Assembly (NCBI GenBank): GCA_002688035.1
Contig: NZBU01000005.1
Span: 1-44,035 of the forward strand
Direction of reading: 5' to 3'
Source: Candidatus Iainarchaeum sp.
GTDB taxonomy: Archaea; Iainarchaeota; Iainarchaeia; Iainarchaeales; GCA-2688035
Length of the DNA: 44,035 nucleotides
A program made the translations under genes and the position numbers. Below the pieces are notes generated by a model, which was not told the origin of the DNA, made no database searches, and saw nothing but the letters and a program-made list of their open reading frames with translations. Shown in pieces: positions 1,816 through 31,830 of this stretch (within the stretch, counting starts at the first letter, position 1; each line of letters begins with the position of its first letter).

Positions 1816-1923
1816 AATATTAGTGCTGTGCGATTTGTTTAAAAGTAGGATTACGAGCTCTTCAGGGCTTTATTAGAGGTAGTCTACGATCTGCGTGAAA
1901 AATAGAAGGGGTGAATAGGAGCA

Positions 1924-2228
1924 CTACCTAAATGCATATTTTTTTGTAAAAGCAGTTACATTGTCTGCAAGGGTAATGCCCCCTCTACTCAGAGTCTTGC
2001 CTAGCTCGGATGCCTTTTCAAAAGACAATTTGCCATTGTCAGTGTTAAGGATTTCCTTCATTTCATTTACCCCTTCGGTTATAGTATATCCTAACTCATT
2101 TAAATACTTTTCGCTTGAAAAAGGGAGATTTGGCCTTCTTTTTTGCTATTCACTTTATTACGGGAATTAGGGCGAAAAAGAAGCCCAGTTTGGCCTTTAT
2201 TTTTATGTATATTTACCTTTTTTTTCAA
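1924..2228 (-). pseudogene. Small gene of about 100 codons with an apparent -1 frameshift in a homopolymer (unknown function)
   Basis: I do not recognise the product. Two overlapping frames on the minus strand both look protein-coding. The first begins at a TTG (2226-2228), reads KKKVNIHKNKGQTGLLF, and continues to about 2120. The second continues from about 2118 (SSEKYLNELGYTI) to the stop at 1924-1926. Adding one base to the five-base homopolymer at 2118-2122 joins them into a single reading frame of about 101 residues. A TATA-like box lies 41 bases upstream of the TTG. If the frameshift is real, the shortest intact product starts at the ATG ending at 2061 and has 45 residues (MKEILNTDNGKLSFEKASEL and onward). 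It may be a sequencing error, a decayed gene or a recoding site. Confidence 0.5.
2116..2205. repeat. Two imperfect 30-base copies 57 bases apart
   Basis: Copies near 2116-2146 and 2173-2205 share GAAAAAG, a central TTTGGCCTT and a following T-run. The 57-base spacing is a multiple of three. Within the small minus-strand gene both copies encode a G-Q-x-x-L-F-like peptide in the same frame. Each copy can also fold as a weak hairpin followed by T-rich sequence. Confidence 0.45.
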
Positions 2229-2262
2229 ACTTTTCTTGAGCTGGAAATCTCCAAAAATAGCG

Positions 2263-2274
2263 GTTATGTATAAG
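2263..2274 (-). promoter_or_regulatory. TATA-like box for the small gene at 1924-2228
   Basis: The minus strand reads CTTATACATAAC, centred about 41 bases before the TTG start. Archaeal transcription starts about 25 bases after the TATA box, which would leave a leader of roughly 15 bases. This supports a real, separately transcribed gene between fttA and the kinase-like gene. Confidence 0.4.
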
Positions 2275-2320
2275 ATATCCTAAAGGGAATAATCTTTTAG
2301 AAAAGGAAAAAGATTTTTGC

Positions 2321-4213: not shown

Positions 4214-4286
4214 GTGTTTTTAACCTTCTCTTTCAAGTAAGAAAAGAATCTAATTCTAAGGCAAATTGGGATTTAAGCCAATAATT

Positions 4287-4931
4287 TTAGCTTTTTTGCG
4301 GAGTTTTGGCTTTCTCTATGAATTTGCTTACTTCGCTTTCGCTGAGGTCCCTTGCGCCCTGCGCGTCAATTACTAGTACGCTGACGCTTTTTCCCCCGGA
4401 ATAAATATCTCTCTTTTTCCCAGCTTCTATGGCCTTTATCGCAAGTGCGATTCCTTCTTCCTCAGTTATTCCCACTTCATAGTTTTGGTCCAGAGTTGTC
4501 ATTGCCAGCTCTGTTCCGCTTCCACTAACAGCGTACTTCTTTCTTTCAAGTACTCCGCCAAAAGGGGTTAGTTCATATAGTTCTGGCTTCTTGTTTATTC
4601 CGCCAATAATGAATTGTACTGAGTAAGGATAATACCTGTTTGCGTTGAGAACATTTGCCAAATAGCTTGCAAGTGCCTTTGGTGTAATTTTTGTTTCTCG
4701 CTCAACCTCGTATAATTGTGCATGGCCCCTCAAAAATCTTATGATTGCCAAGCTGTCTCCTACCGAGCCAGCGTTTGTAACAGCAATATGGTTTGTTATC
4801 TTGTAAAGCTTCTGGCTTTCCTCATCATAAGCCAGGTGCCCCATGCTTGCACGCATGTCGGCAGCTAACACTATGCCAGCATTTGTTATTAATCCAACGG
4901 TTGTAGTTCCTGTTTTTAGGTCTTTTTCCAA
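4287..4931 (-). CDS. psmB: 20S proteasome beta subunit
   Basis: A 214-residue threonine protease subunit of the 20S proteasome core. The short propeptide (MEKDLKTG) ends at G8, so the mature chain begins TTTVG. Counting from that Thr1, Asp17 (AADMR) and Lys33 (ESQK) fall exactly at the classical catalytic positions, and the later SGSG and the region around GGKSV are also present. It is therefore an active beta subunit that needs an alpha subunit, which is not in this window. The start is a TTG supported by a GGTGAT Shine-Dalgarno site a few bases upstream. It lies between a SlyD-type FKBP and fttA, all on the minus strand. Confidence 0.95.
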   Translation of the reverse strand: MEKDLKTGTTTVGLITNAGIVLAADMRASMGHLAYDEESQKLYKITNHIAVTNAGSVGDSLAIIRFLRGHAQLYEVERETKITPKALASYLANVLNANRYYPYSVQFIIGGINKKPELYELTPFGGVLERKKYAVSGSGTELAMTTLDQNYEVGITEEEGIALAIKAIEAGKKRDIYSGGKSVSVLVIDAQGARDLSESEVSKFIEKAKTPQKS

Positions 4932-5004
4932 TTAATCACCCAAAAAAATTATCTCACAATTAGTTGAGCCTATGAAAATCTTTCTACAAGCAAATGTTTA
5001 AAAA

Positions 5005-5703
5005 TCATTGTTTTGTAGCTTTCTTCTCAACCTTTTCTTTGAACTCCTCAACGAATTTTACTTTTGTAATACCTTTAATGTTCTTTGTCACAAGGTCTGA
5101 GAACCTCTTTTTCAAGTTGGCGGCAGCCGCAGTGTACTTTGCGTCAAGCCCTATCTCAATTTCCTTGTCTGTAATCTTAATGCTCTTCTCTTTCTCCGGA
5201 ATTCCCCCAAAGTACTTATCAAAGAGCGCTTGAACCTGGTTTTTTGCACCGGTAACTTCTTTCACAACCTTGAGCTCGTACTCCAAGTCTTTTCCAGCTA
5301 AAGGATGGTTAAAGTCAACTCTTACTCTTCCACCACTAACACTTTGAACTCTTCCTTGTCTACCATTAACCTCTAAAACAAGTCCAGGGATTGGATTCAT
5401 CTTCTGGCGCTTGAACTCGCGCATTGGAAGCACTCTTACAAGCTGGCTTTGCCTTTCTCCAAAACCGTCAGCGGGTTTTATTGAGGCTTTTCGCTCATCG
5501 CCAACCTTCATCTCTTTGAGAGAATCATCAAGCCCCTTGAGAAGCTCTTGCTCTCCAACAATAACCGTAACGGGCTTGTACTTAATTTGCTTGTTGAAAA
5601 TTCCGGCATCAATCGCCTTCTTCTCAACAGTAGTGTCAAAAACTTCGTTGCTAACAACTACTTTTCCAGTGTAATTAACTTCAACAATGCTTCCTTCCTT
5701 CAA
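5005..5703 (-). CDS. slyD: FKBP-type peptidyl-prolyl isomerase, SlyD/archaeal long-type
   Basis: A 232-residue cytoplasmic prolyl isomerase and chaperone. Residues 1-90 form the FKBP core with typical stretches (GSIVEVNYTGKV, VGEQELLKGLDDSLKEM, IKPADGFGER). The 'insert-in-flap' chaperone region follows, then the closing strand VDFNHPLAGKDLEYELKV. About 80 extra C-terminal residues (from roughly 150) match the extension of archaeal FKBP26-like proteins and end in a lysine-rich tail. The start is TTG with GAGGTG seven bases upstream. A TATA-like TTATAAAG lies on the minus strand near 5742-5752. Prolyl isomerase plus holdase activity in folding new proteins is inferred from the family. Confidence 0.9.
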   Translation of the reverse strand: MKEGSIVEVNYTGKVVVSNEVFDTTVEKKAIDAGIFNKQIKYKPVTVIVGEQELLKGLDDSLKEMKVGDERKASIKPADGFGERQSQLVRVLPMREFKRQKMNPIPGLVLEVNGRQGRVQSVSGGRVRVDFNHPLAGKDLEYELKVVKEVTGAKNQVQALFDKYFGGIPEKEKSIKITDKEIEIGLDAKYTAAAANLKKRFSDLVTKNIKGITKVKFVEEFKEKVEKKATKQ

Positions 5704-5791
5704 TAAAACACCTCTTAAAAAAAATCGCTGCGTAAAAATCAGCCTTTATAACTAATCAATTTTTCCCCAGAAAGGTTTTAAAAGGTGGGGT

Positions 5792-5980
5792 TTGGTAGCT
5801 ATTCTAATCAACCTTCACCCCATTCTCCTGGGTCTATGCCACAAACCTTGTCCTCTGTGCAGTAAGCATCTTGGCCCCCGCAGCAGCCCGCACACAGCAG
5901 GCGAAACAGTTGCAGTTGACGTTGGCTTCTATCTTGTAAGGGGAGAAATCGCTGAAATAAAAGCAGTTGAAAGCGAATAA
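5792..5980 (+). CDS. Doubtful small ORF, possibly a gene remnant
   Basis: This 62-codon frame starts with TTG and ends one base before the stop of the convergent gene at 5981. Its second half (AGETVAVDVGFYLVRGEIAE, then an acidic end) has amino-acid and codon use typical of real genes here. Its first half (with a CHKPCPLC motif) is less convincing. On the opposite strand, the frame ending at 5808 reads CAGCCGGQDAYC and then a V-C-G-I-D-P-G-E-W end, which also looks like a real cysteine-rich secreted tail but lacks a start. The 277 bases between slyD and the gene at 5981 may therefore hold the remains of one or two genes. I cannot decide between these. Confidence 0.3.
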   Translation: MVAILINLHPILLGLCHKPCPLCSKHLGPRSSPHTAGETVAVDVGFYLVRGEIAEIKAVESE

Positions 5981-6472
5981 CTACTGTTTCTTTTTTCTGA
6001 ACAAAATCGTTGGCAGCGCGATTGCTGCTATTAAAGCAATTATTCCTGTTGAGAACTCCATTTCATTGAATTCAATTCCCATGAACTCTGGAATGCACAC
6101 GGCCATAGCAGCACAAGGCGTATCCCAATAACATATACGGGAAGGTGTGCCAGTTTCATAACGTGTATAACACGCCGCTTTAGTAAGACCCACACAAGTA
6201 GTTGTTGGCACTCTTGTTGCACAGACCCCTGTTCCACCAAGTGAACATAGTGGGTCGCAAGAACCACCTGTACCACAAGCAGTTCCTGTCCAAGCACAGG
6301 GTTGACCAACGCCGTTAGTCATATAAAAATAGTCTCCGCACACTGCCTCTGTTTTCCCAACACAAGTGACTATACACCCTCCTGGGGCAACAGTAGTACA
6401 TGGCGGCTTTCCAAAAACGCTGTTAGCAAACAGCGCCAGCAAAACCAAAACAATCAAAATTTTTGCTCTCAT
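5981..6472 (-). CDS. Cysteine-rich secreted protein with PEF-type C-terminal sorting tail
   Basis: A 163-residue surface protein. It has a signal peptide (residues 1-21, ending FANSVFG), then a cysteine-rich body of about 100 residues. The end carries PEF (in IPEFMGIEFNEM), a hydrophobic helix (GIIALIAAIALPTILF) and a RKKKQ tail. PEF-type tails are recognised and cut by archaeosortases in methanogens and others, so anchoring or lipid attachment at the surface is inferred. The body contains an internal duplication with the pattern C-V-G-x-T-x-A-x-C, followed about 12 residues later by C-x-W and a further Cys. This suggests two disulfide-knotted modules. Its upstream element is shared with the next secreted gene. 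No enzyme motif is seen. Confidence 0.75.
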   Translation of the reverse strand: MRAKILIVLVLLALFANSVFGKPPCTTVAPGGCIVTCVGKTEAVCGDYFYMTNGVGQPCAWTGTACGTGGSCDPLCSLGGTGVCATRVPTTTCVGLTKAACYTRYETGTPSRICYWDTPCAAMAVCIPEFMGIEFNEMEFSTGIIALIAAIALPTILFRKKKQ

Positions 6473-18646: not shown

Positions 18647-21600
18647 TTGCCTTTAGATGATATTAAATCAAAACTAGCTGGGTTTACTGGTGGAGACATT
18701 CTCGCAAGCATCAAAAAGATTTACTTTGGCCTTGAGGATCGCTACTATGGCGTTCTTGATCAAATAAACAAAAAAGTCCCAATTTATAAAATAATTGATC
18801 CAATCGACAAGGTATTTCCCTCATTCCTGCTGTTAATTCTCTTCGTGTTTTTTGTAATACTTTTCATTGCTCTTTTTCCAATTTTCACTTTTCCCGCAGA
18901 ATTTAATACCACTATAAAAGTAACTGATACCAGCGGAAAAGTGTTAGAGGGTGCACTAATAGAAATTGATTCAGAGCTTTTCCAGGAAACTTTCTCTGAC
19001 ACAACTGATGCTTGGGGTGAAGTTCAGTTAAAAATTCCAGCGGACGAGCTTAGCGTTGATGCAAAGGTATCCCTAAAAAGCTTTGATACTTTCGATGACG
19101 AGGTACTATTGATTTCAGATGAAATAAGGACCGTTAAACTCAAGCTCGAGCAAATTGATTTAGGGCCCTCGGTAAGTCAAAAAACAATCCTCCTTATTAA
19201 CGCACGAACAAACGTGAAAATTGATTCCTCTGCAACAATCGAATTTAGTTGCTCTACGGGGGATGCCGCCCCTCCAACCCAAACCAGAAGCGATGCAACA
19301 TTCACAGTTACTCCTTCAAGCAACTGTGGGCAAATTACTGCAACGGTTAGGGCAAATGGTTTTGAACCAAGAAGCAAGTTCTTAACACAGAGTACCACCC
19401 GTCTTGAACTAGCTCCTGTTGAGAGTACTGGAAAAATTCATGTTACTGTCAAAAACTTTGATGGTTCAAATGCGCCTGATGCATTACTCTCATTGTTTGA
19501 TGAAACCACAAACGCGGAAGTTGATTCTGGTACCACGGCAACAAGTGGAACATATCAGTTTGATGAAATTGAACCAGGTTCATACAAAGTTGGAGCCTCT
19601 CCGATAGAGGGTGCGCCAGCCATAAAAACCGGTATTGATGTTTCCGCAGGAGACACAGAGTATGTTACAATAAACTTGCCTGAAGTTCTTCAGGGGAAAA
19701 ATCTTTTTGTAAAAGTTGTTGACTTAAATGGAAATGACCCGATTGTTAATGCAACACTTCTTTTTTACGCAGGTTCGGATAGGGTTGATTCAAAAACTAC
19801 TGGAACAGATGGAACTGCTCGCCAACTGATTTCTGATGAAACTCTTACCTACAAAGCAGTCATAACCCATCCAAATTATCTGACAAGTATTGCAGTTGAC
19901 ATTCCTGTCAAGGATGCTTCAGACAGCAGCCCATACTTGATAAAAATCACAAAGAAGATAACTGTTCCCCCTGTAAATCACCCCGTGATATTTGTGAGGG
20001 TTGTGGATGAAGAACAACAGCCAGTAGAAGACGCTTCAGTTTGGATTTACGATAATGACTTTCCGGAACTCCCGCTAAATCACCCTGCAAAAAAATCTAA
20101 TGTCGATGGAAACGTTGTTTTTGATTCTCTTGCACCAGGAACATACTTTGCAAAGGCCCTTGCCAATGAGAAAGACGGGCAATCTGAAGCAGTGTTTGCT
20201 GATGCAGCCGAATTTGTTTTCTTAACTCTTACTCTTGTGTTGGGCGAAGGGGATATAGAAGTAACTGTTTTTGATGCAGAGAGCGCTGAAGAAGCCCCAA
20301 TAGAAAACGCAAGTGTTGAATTCTTTGGTATATCCCCGCCAAATGTTAAAGGTCAATTGATTGACTCCTGCACAACAGATACAGCCGGGAAGTGTACTTC
20401 AAATCTAATTGGAGCGGACAAAATAGTTTATGCAAGAGCAACTGCTCCAGAATTTGTTCCTATTGTAAGTGATAAGGAAATAAGTATTGTCGATGGGTCA
20501 ACTGAACACATTGAACTCGGTTTGATTCCAACAACCAGCATTCCTCTTGACAAGAAAATAATTTCCGAGTTTGTTCAATTGTGTGATGACTGGGATTGTG
20601 ACAGTTCTCCAAACAAACTTGAGAGTAATGATATTGAAGAAGGAGCAAAAACATATTATGCACGATTCAATCTTATTCTTCCTGTAGATGATCAAAACAC
20701 TTACTTGGACATAAAGCAGCACATCCGTGTTGGCTCAAACGAAATGACCGCCATTCCTGTTAATGACTATAAAATAAAGCTTAAGGAGGTGAGAGCGGCA
20801 GCAGCAAACGCAATAATTCTTTCGGACTGTTGGGATGAAACAAATAACTTTTACAATTCCTCAGACTGCTCTACTTTGCTTGACGCTAAAATGGCGAATG
20901 TTGAGTGGGCTGAAATGCAGTACGGCATAATCCCAGTTACAATTAAATTTGTCATAGAGCCTGGCTTGGAGGATGAAACAGAAATTCCAATCTATTATCA
21001 GGCAAAAGCAAATCTTGGAAGTGGAGAATACAGTACGCTTGAAAAAGTTAAGCTATTCAAAATCGGTCAAGTTCTTTGTGAGGGGCAGGATGTTGCATGG
21101 GGATTTGAGCTCACAAATACTGCGGATGGAAACACTTTCAGTGTTGAAGCAAGCGAAGAAGCATATCCTTTACTTCTTTCAACCGAGTATGATCTTGGAT
21201 ATTGGATTTACAATTGTTCAAACTTTGATGTTCAAGCAAATCTAAGTGTGTCAAACCAAAATCCGTCAAACGCAATAAGCTTCCCAGAACTATCTGGACA
21301 ACAACCGTTTGCAGTTTTGACAGAACCATTCCCAAAAAGCACTATTATCTCAAGTAATGAAGAAACAATTGGCCCCTTACAAATGCTGACAATGCTTGAG
21401 ACCGGGGGGAGTCTAACAGATGTCGTGCTAACACTTGTAACAACTCCAACACTTCAAAATGGGATCGAGCAAACAATTTACTTCTCCATTTCTGCGGACA
21501 ATGCAATAAATGTGCAGAGTCTACCGGAGCGTTTGTCAGATATAGCGGCAAACCCTGATTTGTTTGGAATTGTGGTTGATGCTGAAACAGGAAATCCATT

Positions 21601-24600
21601 GGAGGGGGCAGTATTAAAGCTTATTGTTCCAAGTCCTGCAGAACAAATTGTTACGGCGGGTAGAACCAGTGCCGATGGTTTCTTTTCTTTCGGCAACACA
21701 ATACAAGGGCCGCTACTCGGAGTAAGCGAAGTTGTTCTTGAAATAAGGAAAGCAGGTTACAAAACATTTAGTGTTCCTATTCCTGTCGGCGGCTTAACAG
21801 TTGTCTGGAGCCCTGACTTTGCATGCATAGACATCGACAATAATGCCCTTGCAGTAAGGCGGGATCTGGGTAATAGCGATTCTTTCAATGTGGAAACAAA
21901 TGACTGCAATAGAATGGTTGAAGTTATCCTCGAGAGCGAACTTGTAATGAGGATTGGAGGCGATATTGTTGACAGTGAGGATGTAGTTGTTCTAAACACG
22001 GATGATTTCCAAGAAATAAATGTTGCAGCAGAAGTGCCAATCATGGCAGACTATCCACTTGCAATCGGTGAATATTATGTTAGTATAAGAGCAAGGTTTG
22101 ATGGGGATGACGATGGTGTTTTCACTCTTGCTGATGGTCCTTACAGTGCACCATTCAGAAAAGCAAGGGTCTTTGTAACAGATCCTGATAGTTGTTTCAG
22201 GCTTGCCGACCCTGATTTGCCAGGAGATGACTCTAAGATGAAGAGTTCATTTAATTTGAAGCAAGGAAGCGATGACGGTTTGATAGTCAATGATTGTTTT
22301 GTCTATGTAGAGGACACTTCACTTCCAGCGCTTGACACTACCAGAATGCATGGTATCAATCCCGAGGCAATTACACTAAACCAACCACTTTTGAGAAAAA
22401 CAAATCCAGAGGCGCACAATATGGTGGAAGTGCTTGAATACAAATTAAGCGGAAACTATGAGCAATCAATTAGTCCAAACCAAGGGTTTGTTGAATTGCA
22501 GTGGATTGACTTTTATATGACTGATGAAGAACATAATAGTGGAGACAGGCACCGTGTTTGGGCGCAGTTAAACAGAGACGGTTGCACTGCGTCTCCAGCG
22601 GGTTCGATTATTGGGGATTGTTTCAATATAACCGGTCAGTATCCTCTGACAAGATCGAGGTTGGGTTGCCTTACCCAGCGTCAAGATCCAAGTAGATGTA
22701 GTGTTGCAGATCCAGTGATAAGTAACAGCAATGATCCAAATGAAGATGGTTGGGTTGATACAGATACTGCTCACCCGGCAAATGCAAAGTATAAAACCCA
22801 AGTTAGCAAGGCTCCGATTTGGCAGGGGAGGCACAACATCTGCAACAATGAAATAGAATGCTCAATAGATAGATTTAGAAGCAGCGAAACACTACCACCT
22901 TACTTCATTGGCCTGGAAGCCGATAAGTTTATCTTGGAAATCGAAGGCGAGAACACTTGGTTAACTCAGGTTAATTGGGTATATAAAAACTATGATGAGG
23001 ATCATGATGGAAAAATAGAATTTGAGGTAATAAACAATAATGTTTCAGGAGAAAGTTATGCTTTGTTAAAAGCAACTGACTCTGTTGGTAGCGGAGAAAA
23101 TCCTGGACAAGAAAACTCCCCATTTAACTGGTTTGTTGTAGCAACTGCTGTGCAAGAATCAACCACCGCAGATGTAATGATTTCCAGTGACACAACAATT
23201 GCAATAGAAAAAATGATTGGAATATCCGCAGACCCTGACTCTGGAACAAGAACAGCAACTTATGACTTTGATCCAACCACAGATCTAAGTGATTCCGATA
23301 GCTTTAACGCCAGTTTCCAAGATGTTGCAACAGATTTAGCAAATACTCCTGTTTCAGTAAACAGCTTTACTCTTGATTTGTCAACCGTATGTACTCCAGA
23401 TCAAGGTCCACCTGAAGAATGTTTGCGTAGTTTCTTTATATTCTTCTACTTAGCTGATAGCTGGCACTTTGGTGAGAAAGGAGACGGTGCCAACATTGAC
23501 CAGAACGGACTTTTTACACTTGACTTTGTAGCTGATTTGGGACAAGCACAAGAAGTTCTTGCATATGTTCTAATCAATGACGGTGAAGCATCAGATAATA
23601 TTACTGTCGAATCCTTTTCGCAAGAATTGTACTTTTATGAGGAATTCGAAGATATTGGGTCGGATAATGGAGAAGACATAATTCCTGCCGAACAAAATGA
23701 AAAAACAGGAATAACTTTTGATATTCCACTCGTAGTCCCTGGTTTTTCCACTGATAGCAGTGTAGTTTATAATGTTAGTTCTACTACCCCTGGAATCAAC
23801 ATTTACTTTGAAGAGTTAGGTGCGCCAATACAAACAAGTAACTCAGACGCCACAATAACTGCCAAAATTACAACAAGAGTAACGGAGAGAACGCTTGAGG
23901 AGGAGTACTTCCATGTAAGACTTGAGGGGGAAACACAAACAGAGTGTCTTGCATACAACGGTGTTTCAGGTGTAACAGGCGCAAATAACAAGCCAAGAGT
24001 GCGCTTTAATTGGGAGTGGGACAGAATTGATAAGGAAACATGTAGCGAAGAAAATCTGGATTACATTTATTGTGATGCGACACAATTCACAATATCCTTG
24101 CTGTACAGGCTTGAAGAAATAAGAGAGGTAGCGAGCCAAGGCTTTTCAACAGAAAACTTGGCGAGAATTCAGAAACTCAAGTTATTCAATGCTTATCTAA
24201 TGGAAGATTCTATTACAGATGACTTCAGAGCAGACTTGAATTGGTTCCTCTTAAGAGAAGCATCTCCAGACCCGGAAGAAAGTCTACTCTCTCTGGACCA
24301 CCCGTGGCAAAATTATTTGACAGATATAGATAGACTTGTGTTTAATCCAGAAACTCTTGAACCAGGATTATATGATGTGTTCATTACGTTCAACTTTGAT
24401 GGGGAAGACTACATATTCTATGGAACAGGTGGAGGCGATGACTTACTTGGAAATATAACGGTGAACTTCACAAAGATTGCCGACCCACTTATCGCCAGTC
24501 CGTTCTACAGCATGCCTATTGATGGAACAATAGGAAGGCGACCGGACGGAAGCTATGACAGACAAGGCTATGGTGTTAGCTTTAGCAACCCGGGTGGAAT

Positions 24601-25414
24601 AATAACTATTGTTGGAAGTCCTGGAGACGCAATTTATGTTTCAACAGAATCAGATTCGGGCAAAAGAGAAATTCAAACTGCTTTTATTGAGGACTTCTCC
24701 ACAGTTAATCTTGGCGGAGAAAACTATGGACGCAAAGGAGAATTATTTTCAATCGCAAAAACAGGGGATGTAATGACATTCTCGCCAAGTATTGCGACTC
24801 CAGTGCTATTGGAAATGAATTCAGCAGATTCTGAAGCACAAGCGTTCTATTATATTTTGGATCGTGATCAAGGAACGCCAATTTCTAGCAGTGCAGGTTT
24901 CATGAATATTTGGAGCGGAGCGGGAAGCACAATGGGGGATCCCCCATCCAACTGCACAGCATTTAATGGTTTAGATTTATCCTACAGGCAGCAAGATGTA
25001 TCGGTAGTAGGATTAGACGGAATTTGTGAACTAAAGAAGCCCACCTCTTACGGATTCAAGTACCCAGGCGCGCCTAATGCTCAACAAATGTTCATTGAAG
25101 CAGTATTCTTTGTTCCAAAGAGTATGAGTGTGGCTTTAACAGACAGCTGTACTACAAGCACTGCGAAATTCTATTCTCCTGCACAAACAGTTGCCCAATC
25201 ACAGATAGGATTAAGCAATATGGATGGTTTTGTTGTTTCATCTATTCAGGACGTAGTTGACCTTATTGGTGAGGGGCAAATATGTGTTTCAGAGGACAGT
25301 ACCAACATACGCTTCTGGTGGAATCCACAGAGTCTACTCAAAGAACTTGATGGTGTAAAGAATGCTATTCCAAAATGGTCTGAAAAAGAGTGTATGGTTG
25401 CGCAGATAACCTAA
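18647..25414 (+). CDS. Giant (2255-residue) membrane-anchored surface protein with carboxypeptidase-regulatory-like repeats
   Basis: One uninterrupted frame starting at TTG. About 58 cytoplasmic residues precede one membrane helix (about 59-81, FLLLILFVFFVILFIALFPI). Then at least six carboxypeptidase-regulatory/PEGA-like modules follow near residues 85, 262, 352, 446, 536 and 965, each with wording like VKVVDLNGNDPIVNATLLF, DGTA and PGTYFAKA. The rest is long beta-rich sequence with a calcium-like loop DEDHDGKIE (about 1449) and scattered cysteine pairs. There is no clear C-terminal anchor. The size, the N-terminal anchor and the acidic beta modules suggest a filamentous cell-surface stalk or adhesin. 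Its stop is followed directly by the prepilin peptidase start, so the two are in one operon. No enzymatic motif was seen. Confidence 0.85.
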   Translation: MPLDDIKSKLAGFTGGDILASIKKIYFGLEDRYYGVLDQINKKVPIYKIIDPIDKVFPSFLLLILFVFFVILFIALFPIFTFPAEFNTTIKVTDTSGKVLEGALIEIDSELFQETFSDTTDAWGEVQLKIPADELSVDAKVSLKSFDTFDDEVLLISDEIRTVKLKLEQIDLGPSVSQKTILLINARTNVKIDSSATIEFSCSTGDAAPPTQTRSDATFTVTPSSNCGQITATVRANGFEPRSKFLTQSTTRLELAPVESTGKIHVTVKNFDGSNAPDALLSLFDETTNAEVDSGTTATSGTYQFDEIEPGSYKVGASPIEGAPAIKTGIDVSAGDTEYVTINLPEVLQGKNLFVKVVDLNGNDPIVNATLLFYAGSDRVDSKTTGTDGTARQLISDETLTYKAVITHPNYLTSIAVDIPVKDASDSSPYLIKITKKITVPPVNHPVIFVRVVDEEQQPVEDASVWIYDNDFPELPLNHPAKKSNVDGNVVFDSLAPGTYFAKALANEKDGQSEAVFADAAEFVFLTLTLVLGEGDIEVTVFDAESAEEAPIENASVEFFGISPPNVKGQLIDSCTTDTAGKCTSNLIGADKIVYARATAPEFVPIVSDKEISIVDGSTEHIELGLIPTTSIPLDKKIISEFVQLCDDWDCDSSPNKLESNDIEEGAKTYYARFNLILPVDDQNTYLDIKQHIRVGSNEMTAIPVNDYKIKLKEVRAAAANAIILSDCWDETNNFYNSSDCSTLLDAKMANVEWAEMQYGIIPVTIKFVIEPGLEDETEIPIYYQAKANLGSGEYSTLEKVKLFKIGQVLCEGQDVAWGFELTNTADGNTFSVEASEEAYPLLLSTEYDLGYWIYNCSNFDVQANLSVSNQNPSNAISFPELSGQQPFAVLTEPFPKSTIISSNEETIGPLQMLTMLETGGSLTDVVLTLVTTPTLQNGIEQTIYFSISADNAINVQSLPERLSDIAANPDLFGIVVDAETGNPLEGAVLKLIVPSPAEQIVTAGRTSADGFFSFGNTIQGPLLGVSEVVLEIRKAGYKTFSVPIPVGGLTVVWSPDFACIDIDNNALAVRRDLGNSDSFNVETNDCNRMVEVILESELVMRIGGDIVDSEDVVVLNTDDFQEINVAAEVPIMADYPLAIGEYYVSIRARFDGDDDGVFTLADGPYSAPFRKARVFVTDPDSCFRLADPDLPGDDSKMKSSFNLKQGSDDGLIVNDCFVYVEDTSLPALDTTRMHGINPEAITLNQPLLRKTNPEAHNMVEVLEYKLSGNYEQSISPNQGFVELQWIDFYMTDEEHNSGDRHRVWAQLNRDGCTASPAGSIIGDCFNITGQYPLTRSRLGCLTQRQDPSRCSVADPVISNSNDPNEDGWVDTDTAHPANAKYKTQVSKAPIWQGRHNICNNEIECSIDRFRSSETLPPYFIGLEADKFILEIEGENTWLTQVNWVYKNYDEDHDGKIEFEVINNNVSGESYALLKATDSVGSGENPGQENSPFNWFVVATAVQESTTADVMISSDTTIAIEKMIGISADPDSGTRTATYDFDPTTDLSDSDSFNASFQDVATDLANTPVSVNSFTLDLSTVCTPDQGPPEECLRSFFIFFYLADSWHFGEKGDGANIDQNGLFTLDFVADLGQAQEVLAYVLINDGEASDNITVESFSQELYFYEEFEDIGSDNGEDIIPAEQNEKTGITFDIPLVVPGFSTDSSVVYNVSSTTPGINIYFEELGAPIQTSNSDATITAKITTRVTERTLEEEYFHVRLEGETQTECLAYNGVSGVTGANNKPRVRFNWEWDRIDKETCSEENLDYIYCDATQFTISLLYRLEEIREVASQGFSTENLARIQKLKLFNAYLMEDSITDDFRADLNWFLLREASPDPEESLLSLDHPWQNYLTDIDRLVFNPETLEPGLYDVFITFNFDGEDYIFYGTGGGDDLLGNITVNFTKIADPLIASPFYSMPIDGTIGRRPDGSYDRQGYGVSFSNPGGIITIVGSPGDAIYVSTESDSGKREIQTAFIEDFSTVNLGGENYGRKGELFSIAKTGDVMTFSPSIATPVLLEMNSADSEAQAFYYILDRDQGTPISSSAGFMNIWSGAGSTMGDPPSNCTAFNGLDLSYRQQDVSVVGLDGICELKKPTSYGFKYPGAPNAQQMFIEAVFFVPKSMSVALTDSCTTSTAKFYSPAQTVAQSQIGLSNMDGFVVSSIQDVVDLIGEGQICVSEDSTNIRFWWNPQSLLKELDGVKNAIPKWSEKECMVAQIT

Positions 25415-26476
25415 TTGGCGATTGCAATGTTCTATACGCTGAATATTATTCTGATCGCCATACTTGGAATGATATCATCTTACACTGATATCAAGCAAGG
25501 TAAAATTTTGAACATTTTAGTTTTCCCAATGATGGCTTTGGGTTTAATTCTCGCAATCATCAATGACATAAACTTTTTGCTGTTTTTCACCAATGCGCTT
25601 ATAGCATTTGTTTTTGGTTTTGCCCTTTACCTCGCGCGGTTGTGGAGTGCCGGAGACAGCAAACTATTCCTCGCATTTGCAATGCTATTTCCCCTCCCTT
25701 TCTACCCGCAAAACTTTGTTTTATTCCCAGCTTTTTCGCTTGCATTAAACTCTTTTGTCCCGGCATTCCTCGCATTGTTCCTTCTCGCGATTATCAAGAC
25801 AACAACCGCGCAAAAAGTGGAGTCACTCAAAACTGCGCTTAAGCCAAAGCTCTTGGCCTCGCTGGCTGTAATAATCTTTGCTTTCTATTGGATAATGTTC
25901 TATGTTTTCTCCTTTATCGCACTGCCAACAGATTTCTTTCTAATAGTGTTGGTTCTCTTCCTCTTCATTTCAATGTTGGAACGCGTTTTCCCAAAGAAAG
26001 TGGTGCTTGTTTCCGCTGTTCTGGCTGCACCGCTCGCCGCACTAAACGTTAATGAGCTCATTCAACCCAATTTCTGGATTCTCTTTGCCCTAATCTTTGT
26101 TTCAATGGTTTTCCTGCGTTTTTTCATCCTTTACCTTGGCTTTTTTGCCTTTGGAAAGCGCATAGACTTAAAGGATTTAAAGCCAGGAATGGTTCTGCTT
26201 GAGGGGGTCGTCGAAAAGAACGGAATCCTCGAAAAAAAGAAGCTATTCTTCCCAAGCCTTGTAAATGCCTTCCAGGACATAAAAACCAAGTATGTTCTGG
26301 AAATAGGTGCAAAAGGCCTAAGTGAGAAAGATATTGATCTAATTGCACAGAAAGGAAAGGAAATGAAGGTTCGTTTTGACTCCTTGCTCGTACAGGAAAC
26401 CCTGCCCTTCGCACCCCTGCTTTTTGTCGGCACACTACTAACTTTCTTCTGCTCTTTTTTCCTGCCTTGGTGTTAG
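25415..26476 (+). CDS. Type IV prepilin/preflagellin peptidase (A24 aspartic protease, FlaK/PibD-like)
   Basis: A 353-residue membrane protease. Its first catalytic Asp lies in YTDIKQGKI near the N-terminus, and the second in the motif SAGDSKL (GxGD-type) near residue 78. Both match the A24 family, which cleaves class III signal peptides of pilins and archaellins. About nine hydrophobic segments follow, then a soluble C-terminal part (KRIDLKDLKPGMVLLEG) and a last membrane helix, as in large archaeal relatives. The start is TTG directly after the giant gene's stop; the ATG at 25427 is an alternative start. It lies just upstream of the HXS locus. Whether it processes a pilin, the giant protein or an HXS product is not shown. 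Confidence 0.85.
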   Translation: MAIAMFYTLNIILIAILGMISSYTDIKQGKILNILVFPMMALGLILAIINDINFLLFFTNALIAFVFGFALYLARLWSAGDSKLFLAFAMLFPLPFYPQNFVLFPAFSLALNSFVPAFLALFLLAIIKTTTAQKVESLKTALKPKLLASLAVIIFAFYWIMFYVFSFIALPTDFFLIVLVLFLFISMLERVFPKKVVLVSAVLAAPLAALNVNELIQPNFWILFALIFVSMVFLRFFILYLGFFAFGKRIDLKDLKPGMVLLEGVVEKNGILEKKKLFFPSLVNAFQDIKTKYVLEIGAKGLSEKDIDLIAQKGKEMKVRFDSLLVQETLPFAPLLFVGTLLTFFCSFFLPWC

Positions 26477-26518: not shown

Positions 26519-26842
26519 ATGTCTGGTTCCAACAACTTTGAAATAAACAAAAGCGAGAACTTTGTTCTACTCTCAATTAATCCAAAGATATACTCGCTTG
26601 GAGTGGTTTTCTCTGCGGCCTATGTCCTGTTGGAAAAAGCATTTATTGTTGTTGACGGAAACCCTGAGGAGCAATTGGTTGTATCTCTCCAGCCAAAGAA
26701 AGGCAAAAATCTCACAGAGCTTGCGAACGAATTCAACCAACAGCTAATCAATTTTGCAGTGAACTTTGATCAGAGTGCGCGCACAAAACAGATCAGGGAA
26801 GAGTTCATAAAACAGGCTTTTCTCACACACTCACACAAATAG
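26519..26842 (+). CDS. hxsD: HxsD-like protein of a His-Xaa-Ser system
   Basis: A 107-residue soluble protein. Wording such as LSINPKIYSLGVVFSAAYVL, VVDGNPEEQLVVSLQPKKG, LANEFNQQLINFAV and the end KQIREEFIKQAF matches the HxsD family (a small partner of the HXS radical SAM enzymes; exact role unknown, possibly peptide recognition). It is a little longer than the usual 80-100. It is the first gene of a run of five closely spaced genes ending with the hxsC-like gene at 29752. The stop TAG overlaps a possible ATA start of the next gene by 4 bases (ATAG). The identification is from remembered family features and gene context, not a search. Confidence 0.8.
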   Translation: MSGSNNFEINKSENFVLLSINPKIYSLGVVFSAAYVLLEKAFIVVDGNPEEQLVVSLQPKKGKNLTELANEFNQQLINFAVNFDQSARTKQIREEFIKQAFLTHSHK

Positions 26843-27093
26843 GTGTTTTTATCCATCAACTAAAAATTGACACAGAAAAAAATCGGGCTTTCCTTGACTT
26901 AAACCCGTTTTTTTATCCTGAAAAAGTAATTAACCACACGGCCAGTGCTTTCAACAAATTGTGTTCAACAAAATCGGCAAAAAAAGGCAACCGCTTGACA
27001 GTAGAAATTACCCCATTTGGGAAAGAAGGTTGTGAGAAAATCGCCTTAGAGTTCATGAACTATGCGCTCGCTCTTAAACAGGAGCTGGGCTAA
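26839..27093 (+). CDS. Second HxsD-like small protein, with no standard start codon
   Basis: This frame of about 84 residues has no ATG, GTG or TTG near its beginning, which probably hides it from automatic gene finders. It reads IHQLKIDTEKNRAFLDLNPF, FYPEKVINHTASAF, GNRLTVEITPFGKEG, CEKIALEFMNYALAL and ends KQELG. Several features line up with hxsD upstream: LNPxxY, a central V-x-[IL]-x-P stretch, then [IL]A-x-EF-x-N-x-A. It is therefore a tandem paralogue. Its stop TAA overlaps the ATG of hxsB (TAATG). A start at ATA (26839, overlapping the hxsD stop) would mimic the common 4-base coupling. A later ATC or ATT, or a -1 frameshift from hxsD, are alternatives. The function is probably as for HxsD. 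Confidence 0.65.
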   Translation: MGVFIHQLKIDTEKNRAFLDLNPFFYPEKVINHTASAFNKLCSTKSAKKGNRLTVEITPFGKEGCEKIALEFMNYALALKQELG

Positions 27094-28466
27094 TGCAGTT
27101 GAACAAATTTTTTGTCCACAAAATCAACAAAGACAAATATGCGCTAATAACTGATGTTGGAAACTGGACAGATGTTTCCAAAAAAGAACTCGATTCAATC
27201 AAAGAAAACAAAATAGAAAAGCAACTTCAAAAGCGCCTTGAGTCAAAAAAAATTATTCTCACAAATAAGAACAAACCCTCCATTCAAAAAGATTATACAA
27301 ATCTTTTTTCCCACCTGACCCACGGTGTTTCCCTTCATATTGTAAATCCAACAATGCGCTGTAACCTGAACTGCCTCTACTGTTATGCTGACAGTTCCCC
27401 TATTACCCGCAAGGGTTTTGATATGGACGAAGAAACAGCAAAAAAAACAATCGATTTTATTTGGCAGTCCCCCAGAAAAAATTTTGTAATAGAATTCCAA
27501 GGGGGGGAACCCCTTGCAAACTTTTCAACAATACAATTTATAATAAATTATGTAGCAAACAAGAGACCTAAGAAAAATGTTCACTGGAGAATGGTATCAA
27601 ATCTCTCGTTGATGGATGAAACAATTGCCACGTGGCTCAAAAAGAACAATGTGAATGACCTTTGCACAAGTTTGGACGGTCCAAAGAAAGTGCATGACTA
27701 TAACAGACCACTGCATGGCGGCTCTCACTCCAAAGTTGTTCACTGGCTCAGTTCTTTGAAACAGGACTTTGGATTCAAGAACATTGGTACCCTATGCACT
27801 GTAACAAAGCACAGCCTGCCTTTTGCGCGGGAAATCGTTGAAGAGCATGCAAACCTAGGATTGCCCGATATTACTCCTGTTCCTGTGCGAAGCATTGGCA
27901 GAGCAAAGAAAAACTGGAACAAAATCGGTTTTAGTGCGGACGAATACTCCATTTTTTGGAAAAAAGTTGTAGAACAATGCTTTGCCCGCACTAAGAAAGG
28001 AAAGCCAATGACTGAACAATTCTCTTTAATGATTGCACAAAAGCTTCAAGGTACGAAGCCCGCTTTCCACGCCTGCTTCAGCAAGCCATGTGGCGGAGCA
28101 CTAATGCAAGCTTCATACCAGCCTGATGGTGAAATTTATACTTGTGATGAGGGAAAAGCCCTTCCCCTGTTTAAGATTGGAACAGTAAATCAAAAATATT
28201 CCAAAGTCTTCACTTCCCCAAATGCATTGAACATGATTTCACTTAGCTCTTCTCTTGGTTTGCTGTGCAACGAGTGCAAGTGGACTGCATATTGCTGCTT
28301 TTGTCCTGTAATGGCTTATTCCTCACAGAACAGTCCTATTCCACTGCTCTATAACAATATGGATTGCAAAATCAGGCAAAGCCAATTTGAATATGTTTTT
28401 GAAAAGCTTTTCTCAAAGGACCGCTCTACTTTGTTGCAGTGGCTTGGCAAGGGCAAATCTTTATAA
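27093..28466 (+). CDS. hxsB: His-Xaa-Ser system radical SAM maturase HxsB
   Basis: A 457-residue radical SAM/SPASM-type enzyme. The N-terminal 60 residues (YALITDVGNWTDVSKKELD) resemble a PqqD-like peptide-recognition domain. The radical SAM motif CNLNCLYC has its Fe-S cysteines at 90, 94 and 97. GGEP appears in the SAM-binding loop (FQGGEPLANF). The C-terminal auxiliary cluster region shows CGGALMQASYQPDGEIYTCD, then CNECKWTAYCCFCP, typical of HxsB. HXS maturases modify a partner peptide rich in His-Xaa-Ser, here the gene at 28496; the chemistry is not known to me. The overlap with the upstream gene at TAATG shows coupled translation. It is full length with no break. Confidence 0.85.
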   Translation: MQLNKFFVHKINKDKYALITDVGNWTDVSKKELDSIKENKIEKQLQKRLESKKIILTNKNKPSIQKDYTNLFSHLTHGVSLHIVNPTMRCNLNCLYCYADSSPITRKGFDMDEETAKKTIDFIWQSPRKNFVIEFQGGEPLANFSTIQFIINYVANKRPKKNVHWRMVSNLSLMDETIATWLKKNNVNDLCTSLDGPKKVHDYNRPLHGGSHSKVVHWLSSLKQDFGFKNIGTLCTVTKHSLPFAREIVEEHANLGLPDITPVPVRSIGRAKKNWNKIGFSADEYSIFWKKVVEQCFARTKKGKPMTEQFSLMIAQKLQGTKPAFHACFSKPCGGALMQASYQPDGEIYTCDEGKALPLFKIGTVNQKYSKVFTSPNALNMISLSSSLGLLCNECKWTAYCCFCPVMAYSSQNSPIPLLYNNMDCKIRQSQFEYVFEKLFSKDRSTLLQWLGKGKSL

Positions 28467-28468
28467 AA
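28459..28468 (+). promoter_or_regulatory. TATA-like box for the hxsA-like precursor
   Basis: CTTTATAAAA lies across the stop codon of hxsB, about 28 bases before the ATG at 28496. This predicts a separate, probably strong and nearly leaderless transcript for the precursor peptide, as expected when the substrate is needed in excess of its enzymes. Confidence 0.5.
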
Positions 28469-28495
28469 CCCAAAAACATCTATAATATTGATTCT

Positions 28496-28717
28496 ATGCA
28501 GGAAAAGATTCCGAAAATAAAGCGCACGCTCTCCAACTACCTTAATGAGGAGAACGGTCGAATAACAAAACACTCTGTGCTTTCACTTGGCGCAATTCTG
28601 GCTAGCGCAGCCCTTGCTTCAACTAAGCTAAAGGATGTTGCAGCCGATACTCTGCATAATCACACTCACCTGAGTTATGTGCCGCACAGCAGCCACAGCA
28701 GCCATGCTTCGTATTAA
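28496..28717 (+). CDS. hxsA: HxsA-like precursor peptide with C-terminal His-Xaa-Ser repeats
   Basis: A 73-residue peptide. A longer GTG frame from 28439 is rejected because it overlaps hxsB and the TATA box fits the ATG. The leader (about 1-25, EKIPKIKRTLSNYLNEENGR) is charged. A hydrophobic, alanine-rich stretch (HSVLSLGAILASAALAS) follows, as in bacterial HxsA short forms. The end is histidine-rich: HNHTHLSYV, then PHSSHSSHASY. Four His-Xaa-Ser units (HLS, HSS, HSS, HAS) are visible. It is the expected substrate of HxsB and the next enzyme. The mature product, its location and the cutting site are unknown. It could be exported through the hydrophobic stretch. Confidence 0.85.
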   Translation: MQEKIPKIKRTLSNYLNEENGRITKHSVLSLGAILASAALASTKLKDVAADTLHNHTHLSYVPHSSHSSHASY

Positions 28718-28747
28718 TTTTTATTAACTTCAAGCAATTCTCTTTTT

Positions 28748-29752
28748 ATGGGCATCAAAAAACCCTTTGAGATATCATTAGAAGTAAATGATTCCTGCAA
28801 CTACTCCTGCGAATTCTGCTTTGGGAAAAATTCTGTTGACAAGAGAATAGATCTTTCCAGAGAGCAGGCAAAGAAGGTCATTGAAAAAATTGCGGCTGAG
28901 GGCATAGAACGCATAAGGTTTACAGGTGGCGAACCACTTCTTTGGCCGCACTTACAAGAAATAATTTCATTTGCAAAGCAACAAGGTTTATTCACGAGCC
29001 TTAACACAAATGGGTCCCTTTTTTCCAAGGAAAGTGCAAAAGAGCTTGCCCCTGTTTTAGATGATGTGCTTGTTTCGTTCCATGCGCTGAACGACAAATC
29101 AGAACAGCAACTCTGCGGTCAAAAAGGGTTATTTGATAAAAAAATCAGTGCAATAAAAGATCTTGCAAACCAAGGGGTATTTGTAAGGGCTTCCACAATA
29201 CTCTCAGGCCAGAACATTTCCGCCTTAGAAGAATTCAATAAAACGTTAGAAAATTTGCCGGTTTCGCAGTGGGTCTTGCTCCGTCCAATTCCAAATTCCA
29301 ATGATCTAAATCCAATTTCGTGCACAAAAATTGCGGAGGCAGTAGAAAAACTTGTTGCAATCAACAAAAACAGAAAGAATGACGAGTTCCACTTAATCGA
29401 GAATGCCTTGCCCTTTTGCTGTGCCAATCCCGAGAATGTCAGCAAAGTTGCTTTGGGGGGAATAAGGGAGGATGGTCATAGCTCGCTCTTCATTAATTCA
29501 AGCCTTGAAATAAAACCAAGTTATTTTCTTAATCGCGAATTAGGTTCGGCACTTGAAACCCCAATTAAGGAAGCTTGGGAATCACCTTTCATGCAGAAAA
29601 TGCATGCCCTGGAGTTTATTGCAGAGCAGTGTCATGACTGCAAGTATGTAATGCAATGCATGGCTGGAAGCCGGTTCTCTGCACTACGTGTAAATAAATC
29701 CCTTTATGCTCTGGATCCACTTGCTTCTTCGGAAAAATTCATTCGTCAGTAA
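28748..29752 (+). CDS. hxsC: Second radical SAM maturase of the HXS locus (HxsC-like)
   Basis: A 334-residue radical SAM enzyme. The cluster motif CNYSCEFC lies at 17-24 (Cys 17, 21, 24) with GGEP in RIRFTGGEPLLWP. A GGIREDGHSSLFI stretch follows near residue 238. The C-terminal segment CHDCKYVMQCMAGSRF supplies further cluster cysteines, as in SPASM enzymes. Position directly after the precursor peptide, and the pairing of two radical SAM enzymes with HxsD, point to the HxsC role. However, its sequence also resembles general PqqE-like peptide modifiers, so the family name is less sure than for HxsB. A TATA-like stretch (TTTTTATTAAC) just upstream suggests its own promoter. Confidence 0.75.
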   Translation: MGIKKPFEISLEVNDSCNYSCEFCFGKNSVDKRIDLSREQAKKVIEKIAAEGIERIRFTGGEPLLWPHLQEIISFAKQQGLFTSLNTNGSLFSKESAKELAPVLDDVLVSFHALNDKSEQQLCGQKGLFDKKISAIKDLANQGVFVRASTILSGQNISALEEFNKTLENLPVSQWVLLRPIPNSNDLNPISCTKIAEAVEKLVAINKNRKNDEFHLIENALPFCCANPENVSKVALGGIREDGHSSLFINSSLEIKPSYFLNRELGSALETPIKEAWESPFMQKMHALEFIAEQCHDCKYVMQCMAGSRFSALRVNKSLYALDPLASSEKFIRQ

Positions 29753-29786: not shown

Positions 29787-29820
29787 ATTAATTAGTTATT
29801 ATTGTTCGGTGTTACTAACA

Positions 29821-31830
29821 ATGGTTTTTGACTCTAATCCCGCTAAAGAACCAAGTATTCCTGAAATCAGGGGCATGGTTGAACAGGCTGCAAATGACGG
29901 TGACAACAAAAAAAAGTATATCGCAATTGCCGTAGTAGCCATCATATTGATTGCTTTACTCTGGTTATTTGTTTTTATTCCACCGATTATGCCTCCAATT
30001 GAAGTTGATCTATGCCACAATGCTGTGCAGGATGAGGGTGAAATAGGAGTTGACTGTGGAGGTGAGTGTGGAGACTGCCCTGAATTCATTGATCCTTTCT
30101 ATGTACAGCCAGTTTCAGTCTCAGATGTTGCGGTCAACCTTGCTGAGGACAGAATATTCGTGCTGGATGAGTCAAGGCACAGGATAATGGTTTATGATTC
30201 AAAGAGAAATCACATTGCAAACATCGGCGAGACAAGAGAAGGTAATGACAAGAAAGGCTTTGTTTATACAGGGGGCGGAAATGCCGAGGGAGAACTTCTT
30301 TTCCCGGCGGCAATTGACATTGATTCAAAAGGAAGACTGTATATAATTGACCGCGAAAAAAGAATCCAAGTTTTTTCAAGTGATGGAAGAGTATTGGATG
30401 TTCTTCGCTTTGAAGAAAACATTTTAGACACTTTCCCAAAAATGGAGGACACGCCACAAGTTGATGGCGCAGGGCTTTCAATCGCTGTTGCAGAGGATGG
30501 AAAAATATTTGTTTCTGATGAACTCAGTAGTGCGGCAGCAGTATTTTCCTCAGAACTAAAACTAATAAAGGCAATTGGGGGGAGAGGCTCTGGCAAAACA
30601 AACCTTGTTTTTCCAAGGCAAATATCCCTGCATGATGGCTTAGTTTACATTGCCGACAGCGGCAATTCCAGAATCCAGGTTTTTGACACAGAACTTGAAT
30701 ATCAATCCTCTATATCTGAGGGATTGGAACAACCGGCAGCAGTAGCGGTTGGAGAAGACGGCAAAATTTATGTTGCAGACGCCTGGGACAACAAAATAAA
30801 AGTTTTTGACTCTGCACACAATCTCAAAAGAGAAGTTGGTGGCATTGGAAGCATTAGAGGACTATTCTATGACCCTTACCGGATAAAGCTTGATTCTGAG
30901 GGCAAACTTTATGTGGTTGAAACCGGGAACGCAAGACTGCAAATCCTTGACAAAGAACTTGAAACAGTAATGTCTATCGAAGGAATTAGCGGTGGAAGTC
31001 TAACGAGCTTCTCTCCGTTCTATGTTGCCATAGGGCCTGAAAAACAAATTGTTGTATCAGAACCCTTAAACCATCGCATCACCATGTTTAGTTCGACCGG
31101 AAAATATGTGAAAGAACTTGGTGGAAGAGGTTTTTCCAACACTGAGTTCAATGTTCCAAAGGGGCTTGCATTTGACTCGCAGGGAAGACTGTTTGTAGGG
31201 GACAGCCAAAATCACAGGATACAGGTTTTCTCCAAGAACTTTGACTATATTGCCACAATAAAGCATGCTGAACTATTCTGGCCTGTTGCAGTTCATGTTG
31301 CGCCAAACGGAACAATATTTGTTGGCGAGGACAGTTCTAAAAAAGTTCTGATGTTTGATGACAAGGGAGAATACCTTGGCGCTATTGGTGAGGAAAAAGG
31401 AATTACTCTCCCACTTGGAGTTATTGCAACAGATGACCGAATTTATATTACCGATGATAAGGCAAAAACCATTGAAGTGTTTGACCTGCAGCTTAACAAA
31501 ATTGAGAGCATTGGCGATGTTGATGCGCGAAGGAACTTAAGCGGTGAGTTCAACGAAAGCTTTGCATTGGATGGTGAAGGAAACTTGCTTTTCGCTGACA
31601 ACACAAACAGAAAAGTAATTGTCTACGATTTTGAAACAGAGGAGTTTTCGCACTTTGGAGAATTTGGCGATTTCCCTGGTTATGCGCTAAGCGTGCTGGA
31701 AGTAGCGGCTTCTAATGATGGAAAGATAATTGCTGTAGCCGATATGGTAAAGCATCGCGTATTCCTCTTCGACGAGAACCAGGAAAAAGTCGGAGAGATA
31801 ACTATCAAGGCTTTCCCTCGACAAAACTAA
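29821..31830 (+). CDS. Membrane-anchored NHL-repeat beta-propeller protein
   Basis: A 669-residue protein. About 34 cytoplasmic residues (with a KKK stop) precede a single membrane helix (about 37-57, IAIAVVAIILIALLWLFVFI). A short cysteine-rich neck follows (CHNAVQDEGEIGVDCGGECG, then DC), and the rest is NHL repeats: units of about 45-50 residues with wording such as GKIYVADAWDNKIKVFDS, GRLFVGDSQNHRIQVFS and GRLYIIDREKRIQVFSSDG. About ten such units give one or two propellers outside the cell. NHL propellers bind proteins, sugars or RNA; the ligand here is unknown. The gene follows the HXS locus on the same strand but has its own promoter. Its stop overlaps the convergent gene by 4 bases. 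Confidence 0.85.
   Translation: MVFDSNPAKEPSIPEIRGMVEQAANDGDNKKKYIAIAVVAIILIALLWLFVFIPPIMPPIEVDLCHNAVQDEGEIGVDCGGECGDCPEFIDPFYVQPVSVSDVAVNLAEDRIFVLDESRHRIMVYDSKRNHIANIGETREGNDKKGFVYTGGGNAEGELLFPAAIDIDSKGRLYIIDREKRIQVFSSDGRVLDVLRFEENILDTFPKMEDTPQVDGAGLSIAVAEDGKIFVSDELSSAAAVFSSELKLIKAIGGRGSGKTNLVFPRQISLHDGLVYIADSGNSRIQVFDTELEYQSSISEGLEQPAAVAVGEDGKIYVADAWDNKIKVFDSAHNLKREVGGIGSIRGLFYDPYRIKLDSEGKLYVVETGNARLQILDKELETVMSIEGISGGSLTSFSPFYVAIGPEKQIVVSEPLNHRITMFSSTGKYVKELGGRGFSNTEFNVPKGLAFDSQGRLFVGDSQNHRIQVFSKNFDYIATIKHAELFWPVAVHVAPNGTIFVGEDSSKKVLMFDDKGEYLGAIGEEKGITLPLGVIATDDRIYITDDKAKTIEVFDLQLNKIESIGDVDARRNLSGEFNESFALDGEGNLLFADNTNRKVIVYDFETEEFSHFGEFGDFPGYALSVLEVAASNDGKIIAVADMVKHRVFLFDENQEKVGEITIKAFPRQN

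Follow-up and report, generated by a model that had tools for sequence, protein, structure and literature searches.

A prepilin-type peptidase gene accompanies an archaeal variant of the His-Xaa-Ser peptide system

How would a His-Xaa-Ser (HXS) peptide system operate in an archaeon, and which genes does it comprise? The question is raised by the window analyzed here, a stretch of 44,035 nucleotides from Candidatus Iainarchaeum sp. (contig NZBU01000005.1), in which an earlier note had recognized a five-gene HXS locus at 26519-29752. All five open reading frames are present on the + strand in the order it gave, i.e., HxsD, HxsD-like, HxsB, precursor, and second radical S-adenosylmethionine (SAM) enzyme. 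Yet, these limits leave out an A24 prepilin-type membrane peptidase encoded at 25415-26476, upstream of the others, which, judging from its linkage and phylogeny, is part of the HXS system and its most distinctive feature. We regard it as moderately probable that the locus makes a surface-directed, radical-SAM-modified His/Ser peptide whose leader is cut after a Gly by this dedicated A24 peptidase. The features are the following.

25415-26476, +: A24 prepilin-type membrane aspartyl peptidase (PF01478, 30.7 bits, above 26.5)
26519-26842, +: HxsD (D1), 107 amino acids (TIGR03976, 46.2 bits, E 4e-12, cut-off 50)
26851-27093, +: HxsD-like (D2), about 80 amino acids (NF038315, 49.9 bits, above the cut-off of 41, E 3e-13)
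27093-28466, +: HxsB, radical SAM/SPASM maturase, 457 amino acids (TIGR03978, 324.5 bits, E 1e-96, cut-off 370)
28496-28717, +: HxsA-type precursor, 73 amino acids (NF038309 HxsA3, E 3e-9, 36.5 bits, below the cut-off of 65)
28556-28558, +: codon of the conserved Gly21, proposed A24 cut site (after the Gly), inferred from leader conservation
28748-29752, +: second radical SAM/SPASM-like enzyme, 334 amino acids (diffuse best matches to TIGR04347/NirJ2/GeoRSP)

A peptidase and a leader that occur together

In the window, the A24 gene lies directly upstream of HxsD and is the sole A24 found in an incomplete assembly. Hereafter, f1 designates the archaeal family of the window, f17, f18, f21, and f22 other archaeal families, and L and G numbers loci and genomes. 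We found an A24 gene beside HxsB in 31 of the 36 archaeal loci with enough flanking sequence, which span three phyla and exclude L011 and L035, both truncated by the end of a contig. A contig from the human gut (L069) has it as well, but all 13 bacterial plasmid loci lack it. Two extra archaeal phyla played no part in forming the idea of an A24 association and are thus an out-of-sample check: there, an HXS-type A24 lies within 1 kb of HxsB in 13 of the 14 loci with both HxsD genes, and these proteins score 199-351 bits with a profile of HXS-linked A24s versus 53-97 bits with one of housekeeping A24s. The placement of the gene varies, being before HxsD in f1 and f18, directly after HxsB in f17, 4 kb off in f22, divergent in L122, L127, and L131-L133, and between HxsD and HxsC in L069.

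Two A24 genes per genome are usual in this phylum, but at least three were found in 16 of the 20 genomes that encode HXS versus three of the 67 that do not (Fisher p = 3e-11, a value made optimistic by the relatedness of the genomes, although the pattern of a third A24 recurs in several families). In the A24 tree, 18 of 19 HXS-linked proteins, including the bacterial one, group together (95/92) to the exclusion of 20 housekeeping A24s encoded in the same genomes. The exception is an f21 protein with a very long branch, and the bacterial A24 is also on a long branch. Both catalytic-Asp regions, SSYTD and WSAGDSKL in the window, are kept in all HXS-linked sequences inspected, with a GxGD-type motif that reads W(S/P)A(G/A)D.KL instead of GGGDVK. 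The reading frame of the window A24 opens with a TTG at 25415; the ATG at 25427 is the likelier start.

The precursor can be divided into a leader MQEKIPKIKRTLSNYLNEENG, a hydrophobic segment with an AxA-like end RITKHSVLSLGAILASAALASTKLKDVAA, and a core DTLHNHTHLSYVPHSSHSSHASY. All 27 precursors found at A24-type loci carry the leader P(+)I(+)KTISSFL.EE.G, continued after the proposed cut by (+)I(S/T)K...L.LGA and then by a hydrophobic helix, which in most precursors is followed by an AxA signal-peptidase-like site. Position -1 is Gly in 26 of these proteins and Ala in one, and all 27 share Glu at -3, Ser/Thr at +3, Lys/Arg at +4, and Gly at +11. The EExG leader was absent from all the plasmid-type HxsA and HxsA2 proteins compared, and was kept in every member of f1 with a readable precursor.

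The precursor of the window ends in TLHNHTHLSYVPHSSHSSHASY. The earlier note counted four His-Xaa-Ser units at this end, which is right if HLS is included, but the tandem itself (HSS-HSS-HAS) has only three. Precursors are short in f1 (67-74 amino acids, 2-4 units), and those of f17 have 7-27 units. The expectation that relatives conserve this end was borne out for the terminal HxSY, present in all ten complete f1 precursors, but not for the tandem: in G011 and G004 proline-rich stretches replace the internal units, whereas the TLHxHxHLS and HxSY parts stay. The invariant part is thus TLHxHxH(L/M)S ... HxSY and not the tandem repeat, and its conservation in f1 suggests where a modification may lie. 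Some loci have unusual arrangements: about 3.3 kb of extra DNA lie between HxsB and the precursor gene in G004 (L029:1562-6452, -), at L133:6059-7372 (-) a precursor that carries the HXS leader forms one protein with a Hint/intein-splicing domain, and long Thr-Thr-Ser repeats follow the leader at L122:4068-5741 and L131:7708-8310.

The other genes, the host, and the distribution of the system

On profile matches and gene content, the five-gene locus is related to HXS systems and is not a chance resemblance: four of its five genes matched HXS families in a search of NCBIfam profiles, which upheld the earlier assignment of the first three, and the NCBIfam models HxsA3, HxsA4, and HxsD-like match archaeal members with varying strength. 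The family TIGR03978 is by far the best for the HxsB of the window, and f17 relatives exceed its cut-off of 370. The cysteine pattern previously noticed in HxsB is indeed there, with CxxxCxxC at 90/94/97 and SPASM cysteines at 333, 351, 392, 395, 401, 404, and 425. A full SPASM cysteine set implies two auxiliary iron-sulphur clusters. The seven SPASM cysteines are kept in all 22 HxsBs of a first set (21 archaeal and the one of L069) and in 12 of 16 of a second archaeal set; none of 13 plasmid HxsBs has the full seven, with Cys351 and Cys404 missing in 13/13 and Cys333 in 12/13. According to the alignment, the HxsBs of L129 and L131-L133 keep cysteines 333, 351, and 404 and miss three or four others. 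L131 and L133, whose HxsBs are short of SPASM cysteines, also have unusual precursors with few HxS units. Since the seven-Cys and plasmid groups also correspond to two separate branches of the tree, their contrast is a difference between lineages and no independent test. The solved structures nearest to HxsB are those of CteB, a maturase of ribosomally synthesized and post-translationally modified peptides (RiPPs), and of the anaerobic sulphatase-maturating enzyme (anSME).

TIGR03976 is the only family match of weight for HxsD, though under its cut-off. The AlphaFold2 model of this protein (pLDDT 72, order b-b-a-b-b-a-a) has a weak fold match to RPB11/RpoL/Pcc1 subunits (best E 3e-3, TM about 0.5). 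These being dimerization folds, an HxsD/HxsD-like heterodimer is an attractive idea suggested by the model. A role of HxsD as a PqqD-like leader binder was considered and found unsupported, given the order of these elements and the weak likeness to RPB11/RpoL/Pcc1. The HxsD-like gene has no ATG, GTG, or TTG start in the window (26840-26853), where a non-canonical ATC at 26851 is a candidate; relatives start near the same place with ATG, ATA, or GTG. The window is also one base shorter than L026 in a run of T upstream of the gene, so that the start is either near-cognate or obscured by an error of one base.

The second radical SAM enzyme predicted earlier corresponds to a real gene, but it is not HxsC, an identity that we rejected on its 49.5 bits with TIGR03977 (cut-off 267.9), the level of generic radical SAM proteins, and the gene is absent from the G011 locus (L028). 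Relatives in f17 score 190-214 bits with the same profile. As HxsC is one defining feature of canonical HXS, we call the locus an HXS variant rather than a standard member. The HXS islands of f17 and f22 (L092-L096, L098) contain many extra radical SAM genes, around ten in about 26 kb in G061, as well as a SPASM protein of 610-650 amino acids and, in one of them, a cysteine desulphurase-like gene.

The host is an archaeon of the Iainarchaeota/Diapherotrites, whose contig also encodes DNA polymerase D subunits, Cdc6, proteasome, FttA, and NAC, in line with the archaeal housekeeping genes described earlier around the locus. The archaeal replication and proteasome genes on either side led us to reject bin contamination. 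We also rejected anti-phage defense, the PADLOC matches reflecting only a generic radical SAM likeness to viperins. Scans for tandem repeats and promoters gave nothing informative.

The earlier note deemed an archaeal HXS locus worthy of notice; the archaeal host stands, but the locus is no one-off. Of the 87 genomes of this phylum, 20 have HxsB, with 12 of 18 in the family of the window, and it occurs at E < 1e-60 in 11/156 genomes of the phylum of G090 and 3/295 of that of G092. The HxsBs of the first phylum all fall into a single clade (support 100/100), and the gene order recurs in related archaea, as had been proposed for checking. The spread over three phyla and the single clade indicate a retained archaeal system of scattered distribution and no single stray transfer. 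On the bacterial side, the gut contig L069 (MT837156.1) has a full HXS locus at 871-6425, with HxsD, A24, HxsC, HxsB, a MORN protein, and HxsA3; although it is a GenBank record labeled 'Bacteriophage sp.' from human faeces, its sequence looks like that of a bacterial contig. A scan of viral contigs with its HxsB gave no match, and neither did a search of plasmids with its A24. Klebsiella accounts for 305 of the 328 plasmid records with an HxsB relative, and canonical HXS is thus common on Klebsiella plasmids. There remains a joint claim that we find equally easy to believe and to doubt: the A24 leader peptidase, the EExG leader, and the seven-Cys HxsB would mark a second HXS lineage, present in at least three archaeal phyla and in gut bacteria, and separate from the HXS that Pseudomonadota, Cyanobacteriota, and Bacteroidota carry on plasmids.

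Two neighbors deserve mention. A giant surface protein of 2255 amino acids with carboxypeptidase-regulatory-like domains (18647-25414, +) adjoins the locus in f1 and f18, and has paralogues also in genomes free of HXS. A membrane-anchored NHL beta-propeller protein (29809-31830, +) lies downstream in the same two families, and may be either a case of synteny or a partner of the locus. We did not count the NHL, HemN-like, U32, and giant-protein neighbors as parts of the system because they are kept as general synteny in f1/f18.

A proposed maturation route and its rivals

We infer the following steps, their order included. The ribosomal precursor of 73 amino acids would begin with a leader of some 21 residues, continue with a hydrophobic helix, and end in a core rich in His and Ser. 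In the cytosol, HxsB would modify this core, probably through an N-terminal leader-binding region and assisted by the HxsD/HxsD-like pair in an accessory or docking role, and the second radical SAM enzyme would make a further change to the peptide. A24 would act on the inner side of the membrane, cutting between the conserved Gly of EExG and (+)I(S/T)K, a site (Gly21 in the window) that we propose from the conservation of the leader and the known habit of A24 peptidases. Once the leader is lost, the hydrophobic segment would be available for export. The core would end up outside, either anchored or released, perhaps following another cut at AxA. As for the chemistry, the core has no Cys, which excludes a thioether. 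The i/i+2 links of triceptides make a His-to-Ser cross-link, onto the Ser beta-carbon, our best guess by analogy, with perhaps an even chance of being right; the main alternative would be oxidation of Ser, as in sulphatase maturation.

Several observations weigh against this route. HxsB, HxsD, and HxsA of this genome score under the curated NCBIfam cut-offs. Some HxsBs lack an adjacent HXS-type A24 (L128, L130, L136, L039, L043), and the sample has a single bacterial A24-type locus, L069. The leader-binding domain of HxsB is suggested by a bbbaa arrangement at residues 6-51 (mostly pLDDT 66-84) in an AlphaFold2 model that is otherwise poor, and too poor for use past the N-terminus, and a Pfam search of HxsB gave no PqqD match. 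Finally, textbook class III signals have a hydrophobic stretch directly after the cut and Glu at +5. The precursors have Gly or Ala at -1, but the hydrophobic stretch does not directly follow the cut: positions +1 to +5 are charged in the window (RITKH), and Glu at +5 is rare (2/27).

This charged stretch, unlike ordinary prepilins, is the reason why we do not class the precursor as a pilin. It also bears on the idea that, after the A24 cut, the helix packs into a type IV-like filament decorated by the modified core. A24 is the prepilin peptidase family, the Gly at -1 and the Ser/Thr at +3 resemble archaeal prepilins (PMC2910488), and 86 of the 87 genomes of the phylum have T2SSF pilus platform genes; however, the HXS loci showed neither a pilus ATPase gene nor a platform gene, and the AxA-like site after the helix of most precursors fits poorly with such a filament, which we find unlikely. 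The same AxA-like site might be thought sufficient for ordinary Sec export, with signal peptidase I alone cutting there and A24 serving another protein, all the more as plasmid HXS systems manage without A24 and have plain signal-peptide-like N-termini. Yet, A24 and the EExG leader co-occur wherever both are visible, the third A24 is mostly found in genomes with HXS, and we saw no other candidate for a shared substrate, so that we also give this explanation little credence.

A different product could be envisaged, a His-rich metal-binding peptide in which the radical SAM enzymes add a small change that tunes metal binding rather than a cross-link. The 7-27 HxS units of f17 precursors, with suitably spaced His, would suit this function, but the product of the window is poor in His, G011 and G004 keep HxSY while losing the tandem units, and we noticed no gene for a metal transporter next to the locus, all of which make it improbable. 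Least credible of all, and in our view hardly tenable, is that the adjacency of A24 and HxsB is mere inherited synteny of one ancestral order. The flanks of f1 and f18 (giant protein, NHL, HemN-like, U32) are indeed syntenic too. Nevertheless, the orders differ, with A24-D-D-B in f1, f18, and the other phyla, B-A24 in f17, and D-A24-C-B in L069, and A24 stands 4 kb away in f22 and is divergent in L122, L127, and L131-L133.

If the route with A24 as the leader peptidase is true, prepilin-type peptidases would extend the range of known RiPP leader proteases. Predicted as a radical-SAM peptide system, HXS is widespread, and the link to A24 offers it a possible maturation route with a protease, a predicted cut site, and a membrane location, while placing a radical-SAM peptide pathway in small-genome archaea. 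The short precursors of f1 would be convenient in vitro substrates.

Known systems compared

In the literature searched, HXS was mentioned only in passing; we found no published HXS product, role, or chemistry, and nothing on archaeal HXS or on A24 in RiPP maturation. The word prepilin is absent from a review of RiPP leader proteases published in 2023 (PMC10885120), and a survey reported zero biosynthetic clusters in ten Iainarchaeota genomes (PMC9902471). The NCBIfam curators of HxsA3, HxsA4, and HxsD-like may already have noted part of these findings.

The bacterial plasmid HXS systems, with the order HxsD-HxsB-HxsC-HxsA (TIGR03976/7/8; Aeromonas L068, Enterobacter L070, Nostoc L099), resemble the window in that HxsB and HxsD are clustered with a precursor whose His-Xaa-Ser units are C-terminal or internal. 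In contrast, they have a true HxsC, an HxsA or HxsA2 with a plain signal-peptide-like N-terminus, and neither A24 nor EExG leader, and their HxsBs lack Cys351 and Cys404, and mostly Cys333, when that of the window has all seven cysteines. Relative to them, the window adds A24 and a second HxsD-like gene, and lacks HxsC. The gut contig L069 (HxsA3, 113 bits) is closer, with an HXS-type A24, the EExG leader, a seven-Cys HxsB, and HxsD, but its HxsC is a true one (280 bits), its precursor is long, and it encodes a MORN-repeat protein and a single HxsD. The f17 islands (L092-L095, L098) also resemble the window in having HxsB next to A24, D1, and an HxsA with the same leader; they differ by an HxsC relative (about 190-214 bits), several extra radical SAM genes, and precursors with 7-27 HxS units.

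Beyond HXS, EppA of Methanococcus is an A24 peptidase with its own substrate family, pilin-like DUF361 proteins with a QXSXE motif (PMC2910488). The likeness lies in an A24 peptidase dedicated to substrates that have a motif of their own, but the partner in the window is a predicted radical-SAM-modified peptide instead of a pilin-like protein. Triceptide enzymes make i/i+2 links from His C2 to Ala Cbeta and from Phe C4 to Ser Cbeta (PMC11002830). They are SPASM radical SAM enzymes whose targets are aromatic-X-X motifs, among them ones with His first or Ser third, which the H-x-S spacing fits; HxsB belongs to a different family, and at the HXS locus the likeness is this spacing alone.

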